Below are positions 4,204-32,869 of a stretch of DNA of 64,000 nucleotides, in pieces. Location: NCBI RefSeq assembly GCF_019431355.1, contig NZ_CP080269.1, positions 4,645,001 to 4,709,000 on the forward strand. Reading direction: 5' to 3'. Each line of letters opens with the position of its first letter. Position 1 is the first letter of the stretch. The stretch is from Paenibacillus sp. R14(2021) (GTDB lineage Bacteria > Bacillota > Bacilli > Paenibacillales > Paenibacillaceae). Position numbers and translations under genes: made by a program. The notes beneath the pieces are model-generated. The model was not told the DNA's origin and made no database searches. It worked only from the letters and a program-made list of their open reading frames with translations.

Positions 4204-5226
4204 TTAGCCCGGTTTGCTGAGAAGGGTACGAAACTGCTCCGTCAGGAGCGGCACGATCTCGAATAAGTCCCCGACGATTCCATAATCGGCTACGCCGAAG
4301 ATGGGGGCGTCGGGGTCTTTGTTGATGGCGACGATGACGCGGGATTGGCTCATGCCGGCCAGATGCTGGATGGCGCCGCTGATGCCGCAGGCGATGTAGA
4401 GCTTCGGCGTGACGGTCTTGCCCGTCTGGCCGATCTGCAGCGCGTAGTCGCAATAGCCGGCATCGCAGGCGCCGCGCGAGGCGCCGACTGCGCCGCCGAG
4501 CACCGCGGCCAGCGCGGCGAGCGGAGCGAAGCCCTCCGCGCTGCGCACGCCTCTGCCGCCGGCGACGATGATGTCCGCCTCGGCGAGATCGACCGTACCG
4601 CCCGTCTTGCGCACGACGCTGCGGACGGTGGTCCATAACGGCGGCGCGGGGTAGGGCAGCGCCGCGATGACGCCTTCGCTGCCGGGAGCGACCGGCTCCG
4701 CGACGGGCAGGTTGTTGGGGCGCACCGTCAGCACCCCCGGTGCGCCGGGAAGAAACCGCCGCTGCTCGAACGCCTTGCCGGCGTAGAGCGGGCGCGTGAA
4801 GACCGCGTCCGCGCCGCCATCGCCCTGCAGGTCGATGGCAGTAACGTCCGCGACGTGGCCGCCACCGACCGAGGCGGCCACGCGGGGCGCGAGCTCGCGC
4901 CCCGCTGCGGTGTGGCCGAGCACGATCACGCTCGGCCGCACCGCGGCAACGGCGGCGCCGATGACGGCGGCGTACGCCTCCGGCGCAAAGCCGGCCAGGG
5001 CGGGGTCGTCTACGACATGGACGACCCCGGCCCCCCGGGCGGCGAGCTCCGCGGCGGCTTCCTGCAGCGCCGCCTCGGGCCCGCCGCCGACGAGGACGGC
5101 GTGCACGCTGCCGCCGTCCCCGGCCAGGAGCCGCGCGGCGCCGAGCGCTTCCAGCGCCACGCGCCGCAGCTTGCCATCCGCGCACTCGGCATAGACGAGT
5201 GCCGTACGTTTCAATGGTTCGGTCAT
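4204..5226 (-). CDS. etfA: Electron transfer flavoprotein, alpha subunit
   Basis: At 340 residues this has the usual EtfA length. The N-terminal half is an adenine-nucleotide-binding-like domain, and the C-terminal half carries the FAD-binding signature [12 protein letters not shown] near residue 275 followed by [10 protein letters not shown] and ADYGIVGD, which are diagnostic for EtfA. With EtfB it forms the soluble heterodimer that accepts electrons from acyl-CoA dehydrogenase. The start has GGGAGG nine bases upstream. It lies 21 bases after etfB and is surely co-transcribed. The neighbouring fadF and fadE supply the acceptor and donor. The base composition is very GC-rich, which creates long false frames on both strands. 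Confidence 0.96.
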
Positions 5227-5247
5227 CTTTGATCCGGACCTCCCTTC

Positions 5248-6111
5248 TTAGAAAAGCTTCGCTTCGCGCTGCAGTAGCTCCGCGAGCAGCGCTGCCTGCT
5301 CCGCAGGCGCGCCGCTCAGCTTGCGCCCGGCCGCGCGGAGCGGCGGCGCCAGGAGCGCGAGCCGCTCCGTGCGCGGCGCAAGATCACCCGCATCAAGGCC
5401 GAGATCATGGATGCTCACTTGGCGGAGCGGCTTGCGCTTCGCTTTCATAATGCCCGGCAGCGACGGGTACCGCGGTTCGTTCAGCCCTTGCTGCGCGGTG
5501 ATGAGCGCAGGGAGGGGGATTTCAACCGTTTCGTCGCCCCATTCCGTATCCCGTACGACGACGGCAACCTTGTCCCCGCTGCCCCAAGACGCGCCGTTGT
5601 GCGCCTTTACGGGCTTGGCATCGGCTCCGTTACCGCCTGCCGCCCTGGCAGCTCCGGCGGAATCCCCGTCCCGCACCTCCAGCTTCAGCGCCGCCGCCGC
5701 ATGCGGCAGTCCCAGCCGTTCGGCAATCTGCAGCGCAATGCTGCCTGCGCCGCGGTCCACGGCAAACAGCCCCGCCAAGATCAGGTCCGGCAGCATCGGC
5801 TGCAAGGCGACGGCAAGCGCCGCAGCGACGGCATGCCCGTCGTCCGGCAGCCCATCCTGTTCCAGCAGCACCGCTTCGTCGGCGCCCATGGCAAGGGCGG
5901 TTCGCAGCGCCTCCACGGCGCGGTCGCTTCCGCACGAAACGACCGTCACGCTGCCGCCGTGCGCCTCGCGCAGGCGCAGCGCCTCCTCCAGCGCGTATTC
6001 GTCGTAAGGGTTAATGATGAATTTGACGCTGTCATCGGCGACAGCCCCGTTCACCAGCTCGATTTTCTCCTCCGTATCGAAGGTTTGCTTGATCAATACC
6101 ACCAGCTTCAT
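5248..6111 (-). CDS. etfB: Electron transfer flavoprotein, beta subunit
   Basis: The 287-residue product begins with MKLVVLIKQTFDTEEKI and contains INPYDEYALEEALRLRE near residue 40 and CGSDRAVEALRTALAMGAD near 68, the standard EtfB pattern; AGLFAVDRGAGSIALQIAERLG near 130 is the usual central helix region. EtfB binds AMP and docks with acyl-CoA dehydrogenase. The frame is open 93 bases further upstream, but the ATG used here has GGGAGGTG at normal spacing and matches the family start. A region of about 50 residues (140-190) rich in Ala, Gly and Asp looks like an insertion relative to typical EtfB, which is worth noting. It is divergent from fadF. Confidence 0.95.
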   Translation of the reverse strand: MKLVVLIKQTFDTEEKIELVNGAVADDSVKFIINPYDEYALEEALRLREAHGGSVTVVSCGSDRAVEALRTALAMGADEAVLLEQDGLPDDGHAVAAALAVALQPMLPDLILAGLFAVDRGAGSIALQIAERLGLPHAAAALKLEVRDGDSAGAARAAGGNGADAKPVKAHNGASWGSGDKVAVVVRDTEWGDETVEIPLPALITAQQGLNEPRYPSLPGIMKAKRKPLRQVSIHDLGLDAGDLAPRTERLALLAPPLRAAGRKLSGAPAEQAALLAELLQREAKLF

Positions 6112-8832: not shown

Positions 8833-8925
8833 AGTCGGAAACAGTGGTGAAAGCTGCGGCCCAAAAGCATCGGCAGTTGTTTGCGCCGTGACAAGCGAAT
8901 CTTTCGAAACAAAGGAGGGAGCAGT

Positions 8926-11346
8926 GTGGGAGTAGGATCGACACAAGCGCCGATTCGACGCGCGGCTGTTATTGGGTCGGGTGTTATGGGAGCGGGAATT
9001 GCCGCTCATTTGGCGAACGCAGGCATTGGCGTGCTGCTGCTGGATGTGCCGCCGGCTGCATTGACGGAGCAGGAATCGTGCGCAGGGGCGACGCTGCAGG
9101 ACCGCGCCGTCCGCAATCGGTTAGCGGCGGCAAGCATAGCAAGGCTGGCCGCTCAGCAGCCGCCGGCGCTTTACGATAGCTCATTCATCCAGCGGATTAC
9201 CGCCGGCAACTTGGAGGACGATCTCGGCAAGCTGGGCAGCGTGGACTGGGTCATCGAAGCGGTCGTCGAGCGGCTGGATGTCAAAAGAGACGTTTTCGCG
9301 CGCATCGAGTCCGTCGTACGGCCAAGCACGCTGATCACGACCAATACATCTGGATTATCCGTTGCAGCGATGGCGGAGGGGCGAGGCGAGTCGTTTCGGC
9401 GGCAGTTTGCCGCGACGCATTTCTTCAATCCCCCGCGGCATATGAAACTGGTCGAAATCGTGCCGGGACCGGATACGACGGCCGAAGTGATTGCCAGTCT
9501 GACCGCAATTTGCGAGCGGCAGCTGGGCAAAGGCGTCGTCCGCGCCAAGGATACGCCGAATTTCATTGCCAACCGGATCGGTACTTACGGCATGCTGACG
9601 ACGATTGCGGCGATGCGAACGTTCGGGCTGAACGTCGACGAGGTCGATGCGCTGACCGGGCCAGCCATGGGCAGGCCGAAGACGGCAACGTTCCGCATGC
9701 TGGATTTGGTCGGATTGGATACGCTGCTGCACGTTGTGGACAATGTGCGGGAGCGGAGCGAGGACGCCGAGGAGCGGGAGGCTTTTGCACGGCCGCCGGA
9801 GCTGGAAACACTCGTCGCCAAAGGCTGGATCGGCGAAAAGGCGGGAGGCGGCTTTTACCGTAAAATCAAACGTCCCGGCGGGGGCAGCGACATTGAAACG
9901 CTCCAGCTGGACACGATGACCTACGCGCCCCGGCAGAACGTCAATTCACCCGTCATCGAAGCGGCCAAGACGGCAAAAGGTACTGCAGGCAAAGTGAAAG
10001 CGTTGTTGTTCACGGACCCGAACGACCGGCATGCCCGCTTCGCTTGGCAGGCGATCAAGACGGTCCTGCTGTACGCCGCCCGTCAATTGGGTACGGTCGC
10101 GGACACGATTCCGGATATCGACCGCGCGCTGGTATGGGGATTCAATTGGGAGCTGGGGCCATTCGAGCTCTGGGATGCGATTGGATTAGAGCGGTCCGTG
10201 CAGCGAATGCGGGCGGAAGGCGACGACATTCCGGCATGGCTGGAGCGCTGGATTGCCGAGGGGAATCGGAGCTTTTACATGGAAGAGGGCGTGCGGCGCT
10301 TCTATGTCAGCGAGGGGGATTATCGGCAGCTGGAGGAAGAGGAGGATGTGATTTCGCTTGGCGCGCTGAAGCGCTCGGGCCCGGTCGTTCTTGGCAACTC
10401 CGGCGCCTCGCTGCTGGATTTGGGCGATGAGGTGGCGTGCTTGATGTTTCATTCGCCGAACAACGCGATCGGCAGCGATATTTTGACCGCGATCCGGCAG
10501 AGCGCGGAGGAGGTCAGCCGAAATTGGCGCGGGCTCGTCATCGCGAATGAGGGGCGGCACTTCTGCGTCGGCGCGAATCTCATGATGCTCCTGATTGAGG
10601 CGCAAAACGGCGACTTTGACGAAATCGACGATATCATCTCGTTATTTCAAAACAGCATGCTGCAGCTCAAACGGCTGGATCGACCCGTCGTGGCGGCGCC
10701 TCACCGCATGACGCTGGGCGGGGGCGTGGAGGCTTGCCTTCCGGCGGATCGGATTGTTTTCTCGGCGGAGACGTACTTCGGGCTCGTCGAGACCGGCGTT
10801 GGTTTGATACCTGCTGGCGGCGGCTGCAAAGAAGCAGCGGCATTGGCATCGGCGCGGGCCGGAGCGGCGGGCGATCTGCAGCCGCAGGTTAATGCGTTGT
10901 TCGAGACGATCGCGTTAGCGAAGACATCCTCAAGCGGCTACGATGTCAGCCGTATCGGCCTCATGCGGCCGAACGACCGCGTCATCATCCGCGGCGAAAC
11001 GCGGGTCGCGGAGGCGAAGCGCATGGTGCTGGCCATGGACCGCGAGGGCTATACTGCCCCGCAAGCGGAGCAGCGAATTCGCGTCGCCGGGCGCGAGGGG
11101 CGCGCGGTGCTGCAGCTGGCGGTCGAGGCGATGCGCCTCGGCGGGCAGGCGAGCGAGCATGACGTGCGGATCGGCCGCAAGCTTGCGCATGTGCTCGCCG
11201 GAGGCGATGCACCGCCCGGCGCGGAGGTGAGCGAGCAGTACCTGCTTGATTTGGAGCGCGAAGCGTTCTTAAGCCTGTGCGGCGAGCCGCTTACGCAAGC
11301 GCGCATGCGCCAGATGTTGACGACGGGGAAGCCGCTGCGGAACTAG
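8926..11346 (+). CDS. fadN: 3-hydroxyacyl-CoA dehydrogenase / enoyl-CoA hydratase (FadN-type)
   Basis: This 806-residue protein is a two-activity beta-oxidation enzyme. The N-terminal Rossmann fold has VIGSGVMGAGIA near residue 15; the dehydrogenase catalytic region has ATHFFNPPRHMKLVEIVPG near 165 and DTPNFIANRIGTYG near 205. From about residue 500 a crotonase domain follows, with the oxyanion-hole stretch NEGRHFCVGANL, GGGVEACL and ETGVGLIPAGGG, so both expected glutamates are present. The order dehydrogenase then hydratase is that of Bacillus FadN, not of E. coli FadB. The GTG at 8926 is chosen because AAAGGAGGGA lies just upstream. It is followed by the 51-bp repeat array and then fadA. 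Confidence 0.95.
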   Translation: MGVGSTQAPIRRAAVIGSGVMGAGIAAHLANAGIGVLLLDVPPAALTEQESCAGATLQDRAVRNRLAAASIARLAAQQPPALYDSSFIQRITAGNLEDDLGKLGSVDWVIEAVVERLDVKRDVFARIESVVRPSTLITTNTSGLSVAAMAEGRGESFRRQFAATHFFNPPRHMKLVEIVPGPDTTAEVIASLTAICERQLGKGVVRAKDTPNFIANRIGTYGMLTTIAAMRTFGLNVDEVDALTGPAMGRPKTATFRMLDLVGLDTLLHVVDNVRERSEDAEEREAFARPPELETLVAKGWIGEKAGGGFYRKIKRPGGGSDIETLQLDTMTYAPRQNVNSPVIEAAKTAKGTAGKVKALLFTDPNDRHARFAWQAIKTVLLYAARQLGTVADTIPDIDRALVWGFNWELGPFELWDAIGLERSVQRMRAEGDDIPAWLERWIAEGNRSFYMEEGVRRFYVSEGDYRQLEEEEDVISLGALKRSGPVVLGNSGASLLDLGDEVACLMFHSPNNAIGSDILTAIRQSAEEVSRNWRGLVIANEGRHFCVGANLMMLLIEAQNGDFDEIDDIISLFQNSMLQLKRLDRPVVAAPHRMTLGGGVEACLPADRIVFSAETYFGLVETGVGLIPAGGGCKEAAALASARAGAAGDLQPQVNALFETIALAKTSSSGYDVSRIGLMRPNDRVIIRGETRVAEAKRMVLAMDREGYTAPQAEQRIRVAGREGRAVLQLAVEAMRLGGQASEHDVRIGRKLAHVLAGGDAPPGAEVSEQYLLDLEREAFLSLCGEPLTQARMRQMLTTGKPLRN

Positions 11347-11387
11347 ATCGTGGGGCAGCGTGCTTGGTCCGCAAAAGCGAGGCAATG

Positions 11388-12030
11388 GCCTAAAGAGGTC
11401 TACCTTAGTAGCCTACATGGAGTGAAAATACGAGGAATTGCCTAAAGAGGTCTACCCAGTAGCCTACATGGCGCGAAAAAGTGAGGAAACGCCTAAAGAG
11501 GTCTACTGAGTAGCCTACATGGAGTGAAAATCCGAGGAAACGCCTAAAGAGGTCTACCCAGTAGCCCACATGGAGCGAAAAAGTGAGGAAACGCCTAAAG
11601 AGGTCTACTGAGTAGCCTACATGGAGTGAAAATCCGAGGAAACGCCTAAAGAGGTCTACTGAGTAGCCTACATGGAGTGAAAAAGTGGGGAAACGCCTAA
11701 AGAGGTCTACCCAGCAGCCTTCATGGAGTGAAAATCCGAAGAAACGCCTAAAGAGGTCTACTGAGTAGCCTACATGGAGTGAAAATACGAGGAAACGCCT
11801 AAAGAGGTCTACCCAGTAGCCTACATGGAGTGAAAAGTGGGGAGCCGCCAAAAGAGGTCTACTGAGTAGCCTACATGGAGCGAAAATACGAGGAAACGCC
11901 TTAAGAGGTCTACCCAGCAGCCTACATGGAGTGAAAATCCGAGGAAACGCCTAAAGAGGTCTACCCAGTAGCCTACATGGAGTGAAAAAGTGGGGAAACG
12001 CCTAAAGAGGTCTACCCAGCAGCCTACATG
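11388..12030. repeat. Array of twelve 51-bp tandem repeats plus a 31-bp partial copy
   Basis: Units begin at 11388, 11440, 11491, 11542, 11593, 11644, 11695, 11746, 11797, 11847, 11898, 11949 and 12000. Ten are 51 bp; the first is 52 and the ninth is 50. Each starts GCCTAAAGAGGTCTAC, has a central CTAC-NNN-GTAG-C-CTAC segment, then ATGGAGTGAAAA and a variable tail before GAGGAAAC. The central triplet is CCA or TGA, and tails alternate between a few types (ATCCGAGG, ATACGAGG, AGTGAGG, AGTGGGG). A decayed half unit seems to precede it at about 11368-11387. The array fills the gap between fadN and fadA. The plus strand is closed by stops in all frames, while one minus frame stays open apart from two single-base indels. 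Confidence 0.95.
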
Positions 12031-12118
12031 GCCTGATTCGCCCAGCTCCCCTGAGCACATGGCCTGCTCCAACAGCACAAAAACCTTGACTCAAACCCCA
12101 AAGAAGGAGGGATTTTCC

Positions 12119-13318
12119 ATGACCGCGATAAAACATCCGCGGGACGCTGTGATCGTCTCCGCGGTGCGCACCGCCGTCGGCAAAGCGAAGAAGGGCAGCC
12201 TCGCCGACACCCGTGCTGAGGATTTGGGCCGCGCCGTGCTTCGCGCGGCCGTTGACCGCGTGCCCGGACTAGACGCAGCCGACGTCGAGGACGTCGTGAT
12301 TGGCTGCGCGATGCCGGAGGGCGAGCAAGGGCTGAATTTCGCCCGCATCATGAGCCTGTATGCGGGCTTGCCGGTTACGACCCCGGCCGTAACCGTTAAT
12401 CGGTTCTGCGCGTCGGGGCTGCAGGCGATTGCCTATGCCGCGGAGCGCATCCGTCTCGGCGAGGCGGACGTCGTGCTCGCCGGAGGCGTAGAAAGCATGA
12501 GCCATGTCCCGATGACCGGCTTCAAGCTTTCGCCGCATCCCGGCATTGCGGACGGTATGCCGGAGGTGTACATGGGTATGGGTCACACCGCGGAGGAAGT
12601 GGCCCGCCGGTACGGCATTACGCGCGAAGCGCAGGACGCCTTCGCGGCGGACAGTCACCGCAAAGCCGCGGCAGCCATCGCCGAGGGCCGCTTCCGCGAG
12701 GAAATCGTCCCGCTGCACACGCAGCGCGAAGGCGTCGACGATTACGGCAGGCCATGGACGCGCAGCTTTGTTTTCGAGCAGGATGAGGGCGTGCGCGGCG
12801 ACACGACGACAGCTGTGCTGGCAAAGCTGAAGCCGTCTTTTGCCCGCGGGGGAACAGTAACGGCAGGCAATGCTTCACAGATGAGCGACGGGGCAGCGGC
12901 CGTTGTCGTGATGAGCCGGGAGCGTGCGGAGCGGTTGGGCGTGAAGCCGCTAGCCGTCTTTCGCGCCTACAGCGTGGCAGGCGTTGCGCCAGAAGTGATG
13001 GGCATCGGGCCAATCGAAGCGATCCCGAAGGCGCTTGGCCGCGCGGGGATAACGCTGGATCAGGTGGATGTGGTGGAATTGAACGAGGCGTTCGCTGCCC
13101 AGTGCCTGCCAATCATTCAGGAGCTGGACATTAACCCGGACATCGTGAACGTGAACGGCGGCGCGATCGCGCTTGGCCACCCGCTTGGCTGCACAGGCAC
13201 GAAGCTGTCCGTATCGCTGATTCATGAGCTGAGACGGCGCGGCGGGGGTATCGGCATCGTCTCCATGTGCGTCGGCGGCGGCATGGGTGCGGCTGGCGTA
13301 TTCGAAGCGGAAGCATAA
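12119..13318 (+). CDS. fadA: Acetyl-CoA acyltransferase (3-ketoacyl-CoA thiolase)
   Basis: The 399-residue thiolase carries all catalytic motifs: the nucleophilic cysteine in [14 protein letters not shown] near residue 97, [15 protein letters not shown] near 350 with the histidine, and the second cysteine in [10 protein letters not shown] near 388. It cleaves 3-ketoacyl-CoA to acetyl-CoA and a shortened acyl-CoA, the last step of the beta-oxidation round. AAGAAGGAGGG lies nine bases before the chosen ATG. The frame is open upstream into the repeat array but there is no ribosome site there. It follows fadN by 772 bases filled mainly with repeats, and fadE starts 45 bases downstream. Confidence 0.96.
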
Positions 13319-13363: not shown

Positions 13364-15166
13364 ATGGCTCAGAACAAAGGATGGGGCGGCCGGTTCGTGG
13401 TGGAGGACATGGCGCCTAATGCGGTCGTTACGCCGGAGGATTTTACCGACGAGCAGATTATGATCGGCGAAGCGGCGCGTGCTTTTCTCGAGGGTGAGAT
13501 CCGTCCGCGCGATGCCGAGATCGAAGCGCTGGATTATAAGCTGACGGTGGAGCTGATGCGCAAAGCCGGTGAGCTGGGTTTGCTCGGCGCGGATGTGCCT
13601 GAGGCGTACGGCGGGCTTGGGCTTGACAAGGTCAGCTCGACGCTGCTGGCAGAGACGCTGGCGGAGGCATCGTCTTTCGCGCTTTCCGTCGGCGCGCACG
13701 TCGGCATCGGCACACTGCCGATTGTTTTCTTCGGCACGCCGGAGCAGAAGGCCAAGTACCTGCCCGACCTAGGCGTCGGCACCAAAATCGCAGCCTACTG
13801 TCTGACGGAGCCAGCTTCCGGCTCCGACGCGCTCGGCGCGCGCACGACGGCGAGGCTGACGCCGGATGGCACGCACTACGTGCTGAATGGCTCCAAGCTG
13901 TACATCACCAACTCCGGATTCGCGGATATTTTCATCGTGTACGCCAAAGTGAACGGGGATTATTTTACCGCGTTCATCGTGGAGCGGGGTTCCCCGGGCT
14001 TCAGCATCGGACCGGAGGAGCACAAGATGGGCATCAAGGGCTCGTCGACCTGCCCGATCTTCTTCGACGATACGCCGGTGCCCGTTGCGAACGTGCTCGG
14101 CGAGGTCGGCAAGGGGCATCTCATCGCGTTCAACATATTGAATATCGGGCGCTTCAAGCTTGCCGCGGCTTGCGTAGGCGGAGCGAAGGAAACGATCGGG
14201 ATTACGGCCAAATACGCCAATGCCCGCAAGCAGTTCGGCCGCCCGATTGCTTCTTTCCCGCTGATCGGCGCGAAGCTGGCGGACATGAACATCGCGACGT
14301 ATGTGATGGAAAGCATGGTGTACCGCACGGCAGGCTGGATTGACGAGATGCTTCAGGCGAGCGAAGCGGAAGGCGGCGGAACCGGAACCGACGTCGGAGC
14401 GGGAGCCAGAGCAGCCAAGGCAATCTCCGAATACGCGCTTGAATGTTCCATCAACAAGGTATTTGCGACCGAGGTGCTGGACTACGTCGCTGATGAGGGT
14501 GTCCAAATTCATGGCGGCTACGGCTATATCAAGGAATACAAAATCGAGCGTATCTACCGCGATTCCCGCATCAACCGCATCTTCGAGGGGACGAACGAGA
14601 TCAACCGGATGCTCATTCCAGGCACGCTGATGAAGAAGGCGCTGAAGGGCGAGCTGCCGCTGCTGCGCAAGGCGCGCGCGCTGCAGGCGGAGCTGCTGCA
14701 GCCTATGCCGCTTCCGGCGTTCAGCGAGCCCCTTGCCAAGGAAACGTACCGCATCGGTCAGGCGAAACGGACCTTTCTTGCGATCGGCGGCCTAGCCGTC
14801 CAGAAGTACGGGCTTGCGCTGGAGCAGCAGCAGGAAGTGCTCTGTCTGCTGGCGGACATGATGATTCAAGTCTTCGCCATGGAGAGCGCCGCTCTTCGCA
14901 CCCGCAAGATGCTCCTTCGTGCCGACCCTGCCGCGGCGGCACGAACCCGGAACGCCGTCGAAATGACGGTCGTCTTCGTCCAAGAAGCGATGGAGCGTAT
15001 CGACCGCTACGCCAAAACCGCACTGGCTGCGCTGGAAGAAGGCGATGCCCTGCAAACGCAGCTTGCCATACTGAAGAAGCTGATGCGGGCGCCGATCGTC
15101 GATACGATTGCGATCAAACGCGGCATTGCCGCGCGCGTGATCCGCAGCCAACAGTATACGCTGTAA
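13364..15166 (+). CDS. fadE: Acyl-CoA dehydrogenase (FadE-type)
   Basis: At 600 residues this is a long-form acyl-CoA dehydrogenase. The N-terminal helical domain, the FAD-contacting strand YCLTEPASGSDA near residue 145, the beta domain with YITNSGFADIF near 185, and the C-terminal helical domain with GGYGYIKEYKIERIYRDSR near 385 and FEGTNEINR near 405 are all present; the Glu of EGTNEI is the likely catalytic base. An extra C-terminal region of about 170 residues is usual for the FadE of Bacilli. It oxidises acyl-CoA to 2-enoyl-CoA and hands electrons to EtfAB. GGGAGG precedes the ATG. Confidence 0.95.
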   Translation: MAQNKGWGGRFVVEDMAPNAVVTPEDFTDEQIMIGEAARAFLEGEIRPRDAEIEALDYKLTVELMRKAGELGLLGADVPEAYGGLGLDKVSSTLLAETLAEASSFALSVGAHVGIGTLPIVFFGTPEQKAKYLPDLGVGTKIAAYCLTEPASGSDALGARTTARLTPDGTHYVLNGSKLYITNSGFADIFIVYAKVNGDYFTAFIVERGSPGFSIGPEEHKMGIKGSSTCPIFFDDTPVPVANVLGEVGKGHLIAFNILNIGRFKLAAACVGGAKETIGITAKYANARKQFGRPIASFPLIGAKLADMNIATYVMESMVYRTAGWIDEMLQASEAEGGGTGTDVGAGARAAKAISEYALECSINKVFATEVLDYVADEGVQIHGGYGYIKEYKIERIYRDSRINRIFEGTNEINRMLIPGTLMKKALKGELPLLRKARALQAELLQPMPLPAFSEPLAKETYRIGQAKRTFLAIGGLAVQKYGLALEQQQEVLCLLADMMIQVFAMESAALRTRKMLLRADPAAAARTRNAVEMTVVFVQEAMERIDRYAKTALAALEEGDALQTQLAILKKLMRAPIVDTIAIKRGIAARVIRSQQYTL

Positions 15167-31981: not shown

Positions 31982-32869
31982 TTATTGCTGCTCTTCTTCC
32001 TCAAGGCGCTGCAGTTGTTCGAAATTGTTCTCGACTTGCTCGGCGAGCAGCGGAGCATACTCTTCCTCTCCGCGCGGACCGGTCACGACGAGCTGGAGCC
32101 CTACGACATCGCCTCTATGAACCGGAAGATACAGCAAGGTCTGCGGAATCGGACGGCCGTTGAGCCGCAGAATCGTGTCCACGTTACCTGCGATGAAGAC
32201 GCCATTTACAGAAATGATACGGCCGTTATTGCTGAAGCGAACAACGCCTGTCAATGCAAGCGCCTGGCCAATGCTCATGCGCGGGAAGTGCCTGATCGCA
32301 TATGAATTGGTTACCCATGGGAAGAAGCGTCCGCCATTGATGATGACCGTTACGAATCCGCCGGGACCGCCAGGGAATCCGCCGGGTCCTCCCGGGAATC
32401 CGCCGGGACCGCCAGGGAATCCGCCGGGACCGCCAGGGAATCCGCCGGGACCGCCAGGGAATCCGCCGGGTCCGCCCGGAAAGCCGCCGGGACCGCCAGG
32501 GAATCCGCCGGGACCGCCAGGGAATCCGCCAGGACCACCCGGGAATCCACCGGGTCCACCGGGGAATCCGCCGGGACCGCCAGGGAATCCGCCGGGACCG
32601 CCAGGGAATCCACCGGGCCCGCCAGGGAATCCACCAGGCCCGCCGGGACCTCCGCCGGGTCCGCCAGGCCCGCCAGGGAATCCGCCAGGCCCGCCGGGTC
32701 CGCCAGGCCCGCCGGGACCTCCGCCGGGTCCGCCGGGACCTCCGCCGGGTCCACCAGGCCCGCCCGGTCCGCCAGGAAACATCCCCCGGGGCCCTTGGCA
32801 GCCGCAGTCCGCCTTCCGGTCATAATAACCGGCGGGCGCGCCGGGAATGTACGTATAATGATTGCTCAT
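31982..32869 (-). CDS. Gly/Pro heptad-repeat protein with a conserved-looking C-terminal domain
   Basis: The 295-residue protein has a short head (MSNHYTYIPGAPAGYYDRKA, with a CGC motif near residue 23), then GGP-rich sequence from about 33 to 65, then about 14 copies of FPGGPGG to about residue 165, and a 125-residue tail with INGGRFFPWVTNSYAIRHF and several strands. No signal peptide or membrane segment is present. The repeat is a heptad, so it does not keep the Gly-X-Y register of collagen. Exosporium or spore-coat filaments of Bacillus relatives use collagen-like repeats, and a coat role is possible but not shown. AAAGGAGATC precedes the ATG. I do not recognise the tail; it contains a VRFSNNGRIISVNGVF stretch. 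Confidence 0.8.
   Translation of the reverse strand: MSNHYTYIPGAPAGYYDRKADCGCQGPRGMFPGGPGGPGGPGGGPGGPGGGPGGPGGPGGPGGFPGGPGGPGGGPGGPGGFPGGPGGFPGGPGGFPGGPGGFPGGPGGFPGGPGGFPGGPGGFPGGPGGFPGGPGGFPGGPGGFPGGPGGFPGGPGGFPGGPGGFPGGPGGFVTVIINGGRFFPWVTNSYAIRHFPRMSIGQALALTGVVRFSNNGRIISVNGVFIAGNVDTILRLNGRPIPQTLLYLPVHRGDVVGLQLVVTGPRGEEEYAPLLAEQVENNFEQLQRLEEEEQQ
32356..32812. repeat. 21-bp tandem repeats coding FPGGPGG, plus GGP triplets
   Basis: The coding DNA holds about 14 near-identical 21-bp units between about 32356 and 32640 and less regular 9- to 12-bp GGP units to about 32790. Synonymous changes are sparse (GGA/GGT/GGC, CCG/CCA), so the units probably expanded recently by slippage or unequal crossing over. 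Confidence 0.9.

Follow-up and report, generated by a model that had tools for sequence, protein, structure and literature searches.

The described repeats that come closest to the array analysed here are the GTAG REPs, in which GTAG stands at one end of a short palindrome with a stem of 5-13 bp, alternative complementary residues and a loop of 2-20 nucleotides (PMC3733652, Table 1). The same article describes them as mostly intergenic, lying in convergent or co-directional gaps close to 3' ends, with species-specific families, and reports them from Proteobacteria, Cyanobacteria, Chloroflexi and PVC. Many published REPs go with RAYT transposases, and a part in supercoiling, termination or mRNA stability has been hypothesised for REPs (PMC3733652). 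A stricter rule places GTAG or GTGG 0-2 nucleotides from a fully paired stem of 7-20 nucleotides with a loop of 2-5 nucleotides (PMC6006769). Neither 'Firmicutes' nor 'Paenibacillus' is mentioned in the main text of PMC3733652, and neither 'Paenibacillus' nor 'Cohnella' in that of a 2025 REP survey (PMC12306157). Our literature search found no report of the Paenibacillus/Cohnella repeat family described below.

Other systems share parts of this design. BIMEs, the clustered REPs of E. coli, which are bound by gyrase, IHF and Pol I, are likewise clusters of palindromic units in extragenic DNA. In SopC-type centromere arrays, too, every tandem unit (about 40-50 bp) contains an inverted repeat; SopC, however, occupies one plasmid locus and has a fixed binding sequence, and our family occupies many chromosomal loci with varying stems. 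In BIMEs as described in PMC2817692, REPs alternate in orientation, which the units here do not. Bacterial minisatellites or VNTR loci, such as those of the Paenibacillus larvae MLVA scheme (PMC5072193), resemble our case in their tandem organization and in copy-number differences, here between species, but here a single dyad family with a common period recurs at many loci.

We analysed a window of 64,000 nucleotides of Paenibacillus sp. R14(2021) (contig NZ_CP080269.1, positions 4,645,001 to 4,709,000), in which a tandem array separates fadN from fadA (Table 1). A preliminary description, made from the letters alone, had reported 51-bp units in this gap; the array is real and the gap length agrees, Tandem Repeats Finder (TRF) giving a period of 51 with 86% matches, and the names of both genes are backed by family matches. 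A degenerate unit pattern (at most 3 mismatches) matches 12 times and never in 100 shuffles. There are 13 units, whose equivalent dyads begin every 51 bp from position 12029 down to 11418, except for one spacing of 50 bp; as a small correction to the earlier description, the unit at 11827-11876 has 50 bp. Variation had been assigned to a central triplet and the tail alone. The triplet does vary (CCA in 7 of 13 units, TGA in 5, irregular in the unit nearest fadN), but some units also carry GCAG for GTAG or other single changes. The core ATGTAG...CTCTT reads on the minus strand, antisense to fadN and fadA. A simple consensus scan of positions 11300-12200 found neither a sigma-70-like promoter nor a terminator-like site, so that fadA is presumably read through the array from upstream. 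Rfam gave no match at gathering score in the window. A CRISPR array is rejected because the linkers repeat within the array, in line with the earlier remark that unique spacers are absent. Elsewhere in the window, positions 32354-32746 hold a long 21-bp repeat in about 15-19 copies, which would read as a glycine/proline-rich peptide repeat.

Table 1. Features of the window (window positions) and the other arrays of the family in the same genome (genome positions)
Feature	Position	Strand	Remarks
fadN, 3-hydroxyacyl-CoA dehydrogenase / enoyl-CoA hydratase	8881..11346	+	family matches
fadN-fadA intergenic gap	11347..12118	+	772 bp
Tandem array	11373..12031	-	12.9 head-to-tail 51-bp units; TRF, unit pattern, sequence
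Degenerate dyad nearest fadN	11393..11418	-	loop one base longer than in other units
Two adjacent dyads 50 bp apart	11802..11876	-	sole off-period spacing of the array
Representative 25-bp dyad, ATGTAG-GCTAC-TGG-GTAGA-CCTCTT	11954..11978	-	
fadA, acetyl-CoA C-acyltransferase	12119..13318	+	family matches
fadE, acyl-CoA dehydrogenase	13364..15166	+	family matches; NCBIfam FadE above cut-off
Array A	2319543-2320175		period 51
Array B	3158389-3158685		period 51, one spacing of 72
Array C	4589655-4590134		period 51
Array E	5159099-5159729		period 51, two spacings of 50
Sixth array	about 4757400		3.7 copies

The array is one member of a repeat family whose arrays are found behind genes in certain species of Paenibacillus and Cohnella. 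Searches with the window array, its core and a covariance model (R2) found six arrays in the window's own genome, a single contig of 5,984,926 bp, with similar cores and with linkers unlike from array to array. R2, built on 35 units from several species, was run over 394 genomes of the family at E <= 1e-4, and its counts of units, and perhaps of genomes, stand as lower bounds: it matched at least 13 of 22 genomes of the window's genus, at least 12 of 37 of a second genus (which contains Cohnella) and, with one weak match each, at least two of the remaining 335. Among 119 genomes of the phylum, the own genome matched, as did at least two others with a single match each, one of E 5.6e-7. An independent pattern, which allowed any spacing from 38 to 64 bp, gave 139 matches in 10 of the 394 genomes, against 7 for its reversed control; at E <= 0.01, R2 makes at least 53-167 matches in each of nine genomes, eight of the pattern's ten and G001. 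An earlier model (R1), built from own-genome units only, had reached 7 of the 22 genus genomes at E <= 0.1. Scanning named genomes with the own-genome core gave no match (own or very near records were perhaps not included); a second scan, with a TG-stem pattern, matched Paenibacillus lycopersici (NZ_CP048209.1, our G007) and, in the second genus, Cohnella thailandensis (DSM 25241, our G055). The suggestion of a recurring intergenic repeat is thus strongly supported, with six loci in the own genome and 25 genomes of two genera (own included), and the converse possibility considered at the time, that the unit might exist only here in one strain, fails on the same evidence.

Each unit comprises a 25-bp dyad, ATGTAG, 5 bp, a central triplet, 5 bp and then CTACAT or CTCTT, followed by a linker of 26-27 bp. 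With CTACAT the dyad extends over the full 11 bp; with CTCTT its outer part is mostly unpaired. Most sampled units have the CTCTT form with an inner stem of 5-6 bp, and the most symmetric ones pair at 10 of 11 positions. RNAalifold detected no structure in 31 own-genome units, and the dyad became visible across species. The preliminary description mentioned neither the dyad symmetry nor the family, and neither the placement at 3' ends nor the resemblance to REPs. We took one unit from each of 68 of the 71 arrays, leaving out three whose cores duplicated others. ATGTAG is nearly invariant in this set (91-98% per base over the 71 arrays), and the inner stem tends to covary between arrays, with a score of 0.276 against 0.116 in shuffles, which ignore relatedness (none of 500 reaches it), and against at most 0.169 in slid versions of the dyad, a control that does not ignore it. 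Cells changed on both sides of the dyad number 81, against 33.5 in shuffles, and an overlapping set of 35 units agrees with these results. The two measures least inflated by relatedness are weak: double-change pairs number 8 for 7.0 expected (145 of 500 shuffles reach this) and further pair types 23 for 19.9 (30 of 500), the 35-unit set giving 7 for 5.9 (146 of 500) and 21 for 16.1 (0 of 500).

Among the inner stems that pair at all five positions are TGCAC/GTGCA, TGTAC/GTACA, GGTAC/GTACC, CGCAC/GTGCG, GTGAC/GTCAC and ATCCC/GGGAT, as well as GCTAC/GTAGC in array B. Two or fewer of the five inner Watson-Crick pairs remain in 15 of 71 arrays, among them A, C, E and L175 of the own genome and the CCAG types of G001 and G019. 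In L175 (3904-4094), the asymmetric inner core (GGCTAC..ATCACC) is nearly the same as in L006 and L048, in opposite orientation; compared with array A, the same non-symmetric inner core (loop aside) is reversed relative to the outer ATGTAG/CTCTT arms; the inner part of the unit looks as if it had been flipped. As single-stranded DNA, the window dyad folds weakly (-2.8 kcal/mol, z -1.5 and -2.0), and a unit of array A scarcely folds (-0.1 kcal/mol). Mismatches on the sense strand are balanced (31 G-T, 28 A-C); with no preference for G-U, this points to the DNA level rather than to RNA pairing. Our best reading is a REP-like dyad repeat whose action, should it have any, is on the DNA.

Is the constant spacing a property of this family, or of tandem arrays throughout the clade? 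When no spacing rule is imposed, 588 kb yield 588 dyads (shuffled letters yield 152), and the distance to the nearest neighbour, where it is at most 120 bp, is 51 or 52 bp in 345 of 381 cases. The modal period over the 71 arrays is 51 in 46, 52 in 24 and 50 in one, but these arrays were pre-selected from TRF rows of period 49-54 and the figure of 345 is less biased; period 52 appears in 27 of 76 TRF rows. A rough neutral model, scaled from the ratio of length variants to substitution variants inside arrays (32 to 513), would leave 49-73% of arrays in a 2-bp window. A '51-bp law' for all tandem arrays of the clade is rejected, since sampled background arrays lack that period: in 1,000 kb of three genus genomes, sampled at fixed steps (20 stretches of the own genome, 20 of G012, 10 of G003), nine arrays have a period of at least 25, and in none is it 51 or 52. 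Ten stretches of G216, from another genus, held five arrays, one of period 51. The family model, run on 30 of these 60 stretches (20 own, 10 of G012), found no match. Between arrays, core identity is 77% within genomes and 64% between genomes, and linker identity is 44-45% and 37-38%, respectively, shuffled letters giving 26-28%.

The site between fadN and fadA can be followed across the genus, 21 of the 22 genomes having fadN. Beside the 13 units here, this gap holds two units in P. lycopersici and one in G014; in the other 18 genomes no unit was found there by eye, TRF and R2. The units of P. lycopersici are spaced by 51 bp, have the stem TTGTAC/GTACAA and match R2 strongly; that of G014 has the stem CTGCAC/GTGCAG and an R2 E-value of 0.09, above the E <= 0.05 cut-off. 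Unit number therefore varies in place, with 1, 2 and 13 units at the same site in three species. Together with 3-unit super-repeats in two other own-genome arrays, this is compatible with the shuffling of units by unequal crossing over proposed in the preliminary description.

G001, G019 and G010 also have family units between fadA and fadE, G021 has them downstream of fadA (where the contig ends) and G002 upstream of fadN. In the fad loci of the 20 other genomes (177 kb in total, or about 9 kb per locus), TRF at one setting reported 21 arrays in 12 of the 20 genomes; 11 of them have a period of 51 or 52, one sits within fadE of G013, and several (for example in G012, G003, G017 and G015) are not recognisably of this family. 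The resulting density is about 13-fold that of the background sample of nine arrays in 1,000 kb, a figure limited by shared ancestry, by the small background and by the choice of the operon because of the window. Since arrays recur in the fad loci of other species, a putative effect of copy number on fadA/fadE mRNA gains some interest.

Other repeats were seen along the way in these genomes. P. lycopersici carries a second, sequence-unrelated palindromic tandem repeat with arms AAAGTTGCC..GGCAACTTT and period 52 (L213 7967-8478, L144 3230-3671, L145 4451-4849), one array of which lies in the fadE-fadD gap. The fadA-fadE gap of G012, a genome in which R2 finds nothing, holds three adjoining arrays of 51-bp period with different units (L230 2343-3026), one unit containing the near-palindrome TAGC-G-AAATTT-C-GCTA. 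A palindrome-rich repeat of period about 113 occupies the gap upstream of fadN in G019 (L219 1060-1400, with CTGAGAG..CTCTCAG) and in G021 (L218 1171-1501).

We called genes around the arrays with a home-made codon-based caller, in loci chosen for having matched. On these calls, the 72 arrays with two callable flanks (three more lie at a locus end) fall into 29 convergent, 39 co-directional and 4 divergent gaps, against 26, 119 and 54 of 199 array-free gaps of at least 100 bp in the same loci (Fisher p = 4e-6 for the convergent excess and 5e-5 for the divergent deficit); the 75 arrays include four of the second unit type of P. lycopersici, and arrays in one gap are not independent. The bias in placement between gap types could be plain promoter avoidance. 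In 20 of 30 asymmetric co-directional arrays (one of the second type), the core runs antisense to its neighbouring genes, as it does in the window. A few degenerate units were also seen in a putative pspC-pspA gap of G001 (L050, about 5170-5310).

These observations can be set against the GTAG REPs. As in the published families (PMC3733652), a tag, ATGTAG, stands beside a short stem, subfamilies have alternative stem pairs, and the elements are extragenic near 3' ends, 68 of our 72 arrays being convergent or co-directional. The inner stem of 5 bp (6 with the G of the tag), the 3-nucleotide loop and the covariation also agree, with the pairing reduced in the 15 arrays noted above. Published pairs are mainly head-head or tail-tail (PMC3733652), whereas all units printed here point one way; and unlike RAYT-linked REPs, ours occur without Y1/RAYT in the 13 array-bearing genomes of the window's genus. 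Given the shared tag, stem and placement, and on the other hand the other phyla, the head-to-tail units and the distribution of Y1_Tnp, we class the family as a new, REP-like variant rather than as a REP/RAYT system. That the arrays are mobile REPs or REPINs spread by a Y1 (RAYT) transposase is accordingly very improbable, for all that the GTAG tag and hairpin recall them: a Y1_Tnp gene was found in 6 of 12 array-bearing genomes of the second genus but in none of those 13 of the window's genus, the association is loose, as 6 of 25 second-genus genomes without a unit match carry it too, and head-to-tail units are rare among the REPs of PMC3733652. A protein-coding repeat of 17-residue units on the minus strand has next to no chance, and we reject it. 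A frame of 148 amino acids is open over part of the array, but it has no protein relative at E <= 0.001, no frame runs through the window array (the best of six has 4 stops), and the TRF rows of period 52 do not fit. Of the 53 arrays of at least 250 bp, 24 can be read from end to end in some frame, which we take as composition.

Three readings carry more weight. The one we favour, tentatively and a little short of calling it probable, is that a GTAG-tagged, REP-like extragenic dyad has expanded locally into this array and acts, if it acts, on the DNA, most likely as a topological or architectural buffer. A neutral or selfish satellite, whose hairpin-prone units slip in replication, are homogenised by unequal exchange and survive where they do no harm, behind genes, is a possible but somewhat unlikely explanation. 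Such a satellite would account for the patchy distribution over genomes, the locus-specific linkers, the 1, 2 and 13 units at one site, the super-repeats in two own arrays, the avoidance of divergent gaps and the arrays whose stem is mostly lost. It is harder to reconcile with the covariation score of the inner stem, with the spacing of neighbouring dyads, with the conservation of ATGTAG while linkers diverge, and with a modal period of 51-52 in 70 of 71 arrays where the crude neutral model, on arrays pre-selected at 49-54, expects 49-73%. We regard as rather improbable an element working in RNA, with unit hairpins in the operon mRNA that stabilise the fadN 3' segment or tune fadA/fadE by attenuation or processing. 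The balance of G-U and A-C mismatches on the sense strand speaks against it, as do the weak orientation bias (20 of 30 antisense), the gap free of terminator-like sites and the lack of a consensus fold in the 31 own-genome units, even though the array is presumably transcribed from a gap free of promoter-like sites, the sense RNA has a moderately more stable fold than its shuffles (z -2.67, reached by none of 20), arrays lie mostly at 3' ends and fad loci are rich in them.

On the favoured reading of a DNA-level dyad, a resident unit would have been amplified by slippage or unequal exchange. Since inner stems vary from array to array and the GTAG tag persists, the dyad may be kept by a putative reader of DNA symmetry or of a hairpin, not of one fixed sequence; variable stems with a constant tag and spacing fit such a reader, or a topological role, better than a sequence-specific dimer. 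A spacing of 51-52 bp corresponds to about five turns of the DNA helix and could let a repeated protein or topoisomerase site share one face of the DNA. The likeliest role would be that of a topological or architectural buffer at the ends of transcribed units, as proposed for BIMEs, and any influence on the fad operon would arise incidentally, from read-through of the array. A bolder version, which we think unlikely, makes the family a Y1-independent, Gram-positive counterpart of BIMEs, in which dyads phased at five helical turns would load the putative reader, or a topoisomerase, at the ends of transcription units, and in which the fad operon would be a favoured site whose expression is tuned by copy number.

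Gram-negative bacteria are the best-known hosts of extragenic palindromes, whose presence is usually attributed to a dedicated transposase. With a large, regular dyad family that has no Y1 enzyme in the array-bearing genomes of one genus, the palindrome is separated from its supposed mover. Arrays that differ naturally in unit number (1, 2 and 13) at a single orthologous site offer material on transcription and DNA topology, and recurrence in fad loci points to a concrete operon.
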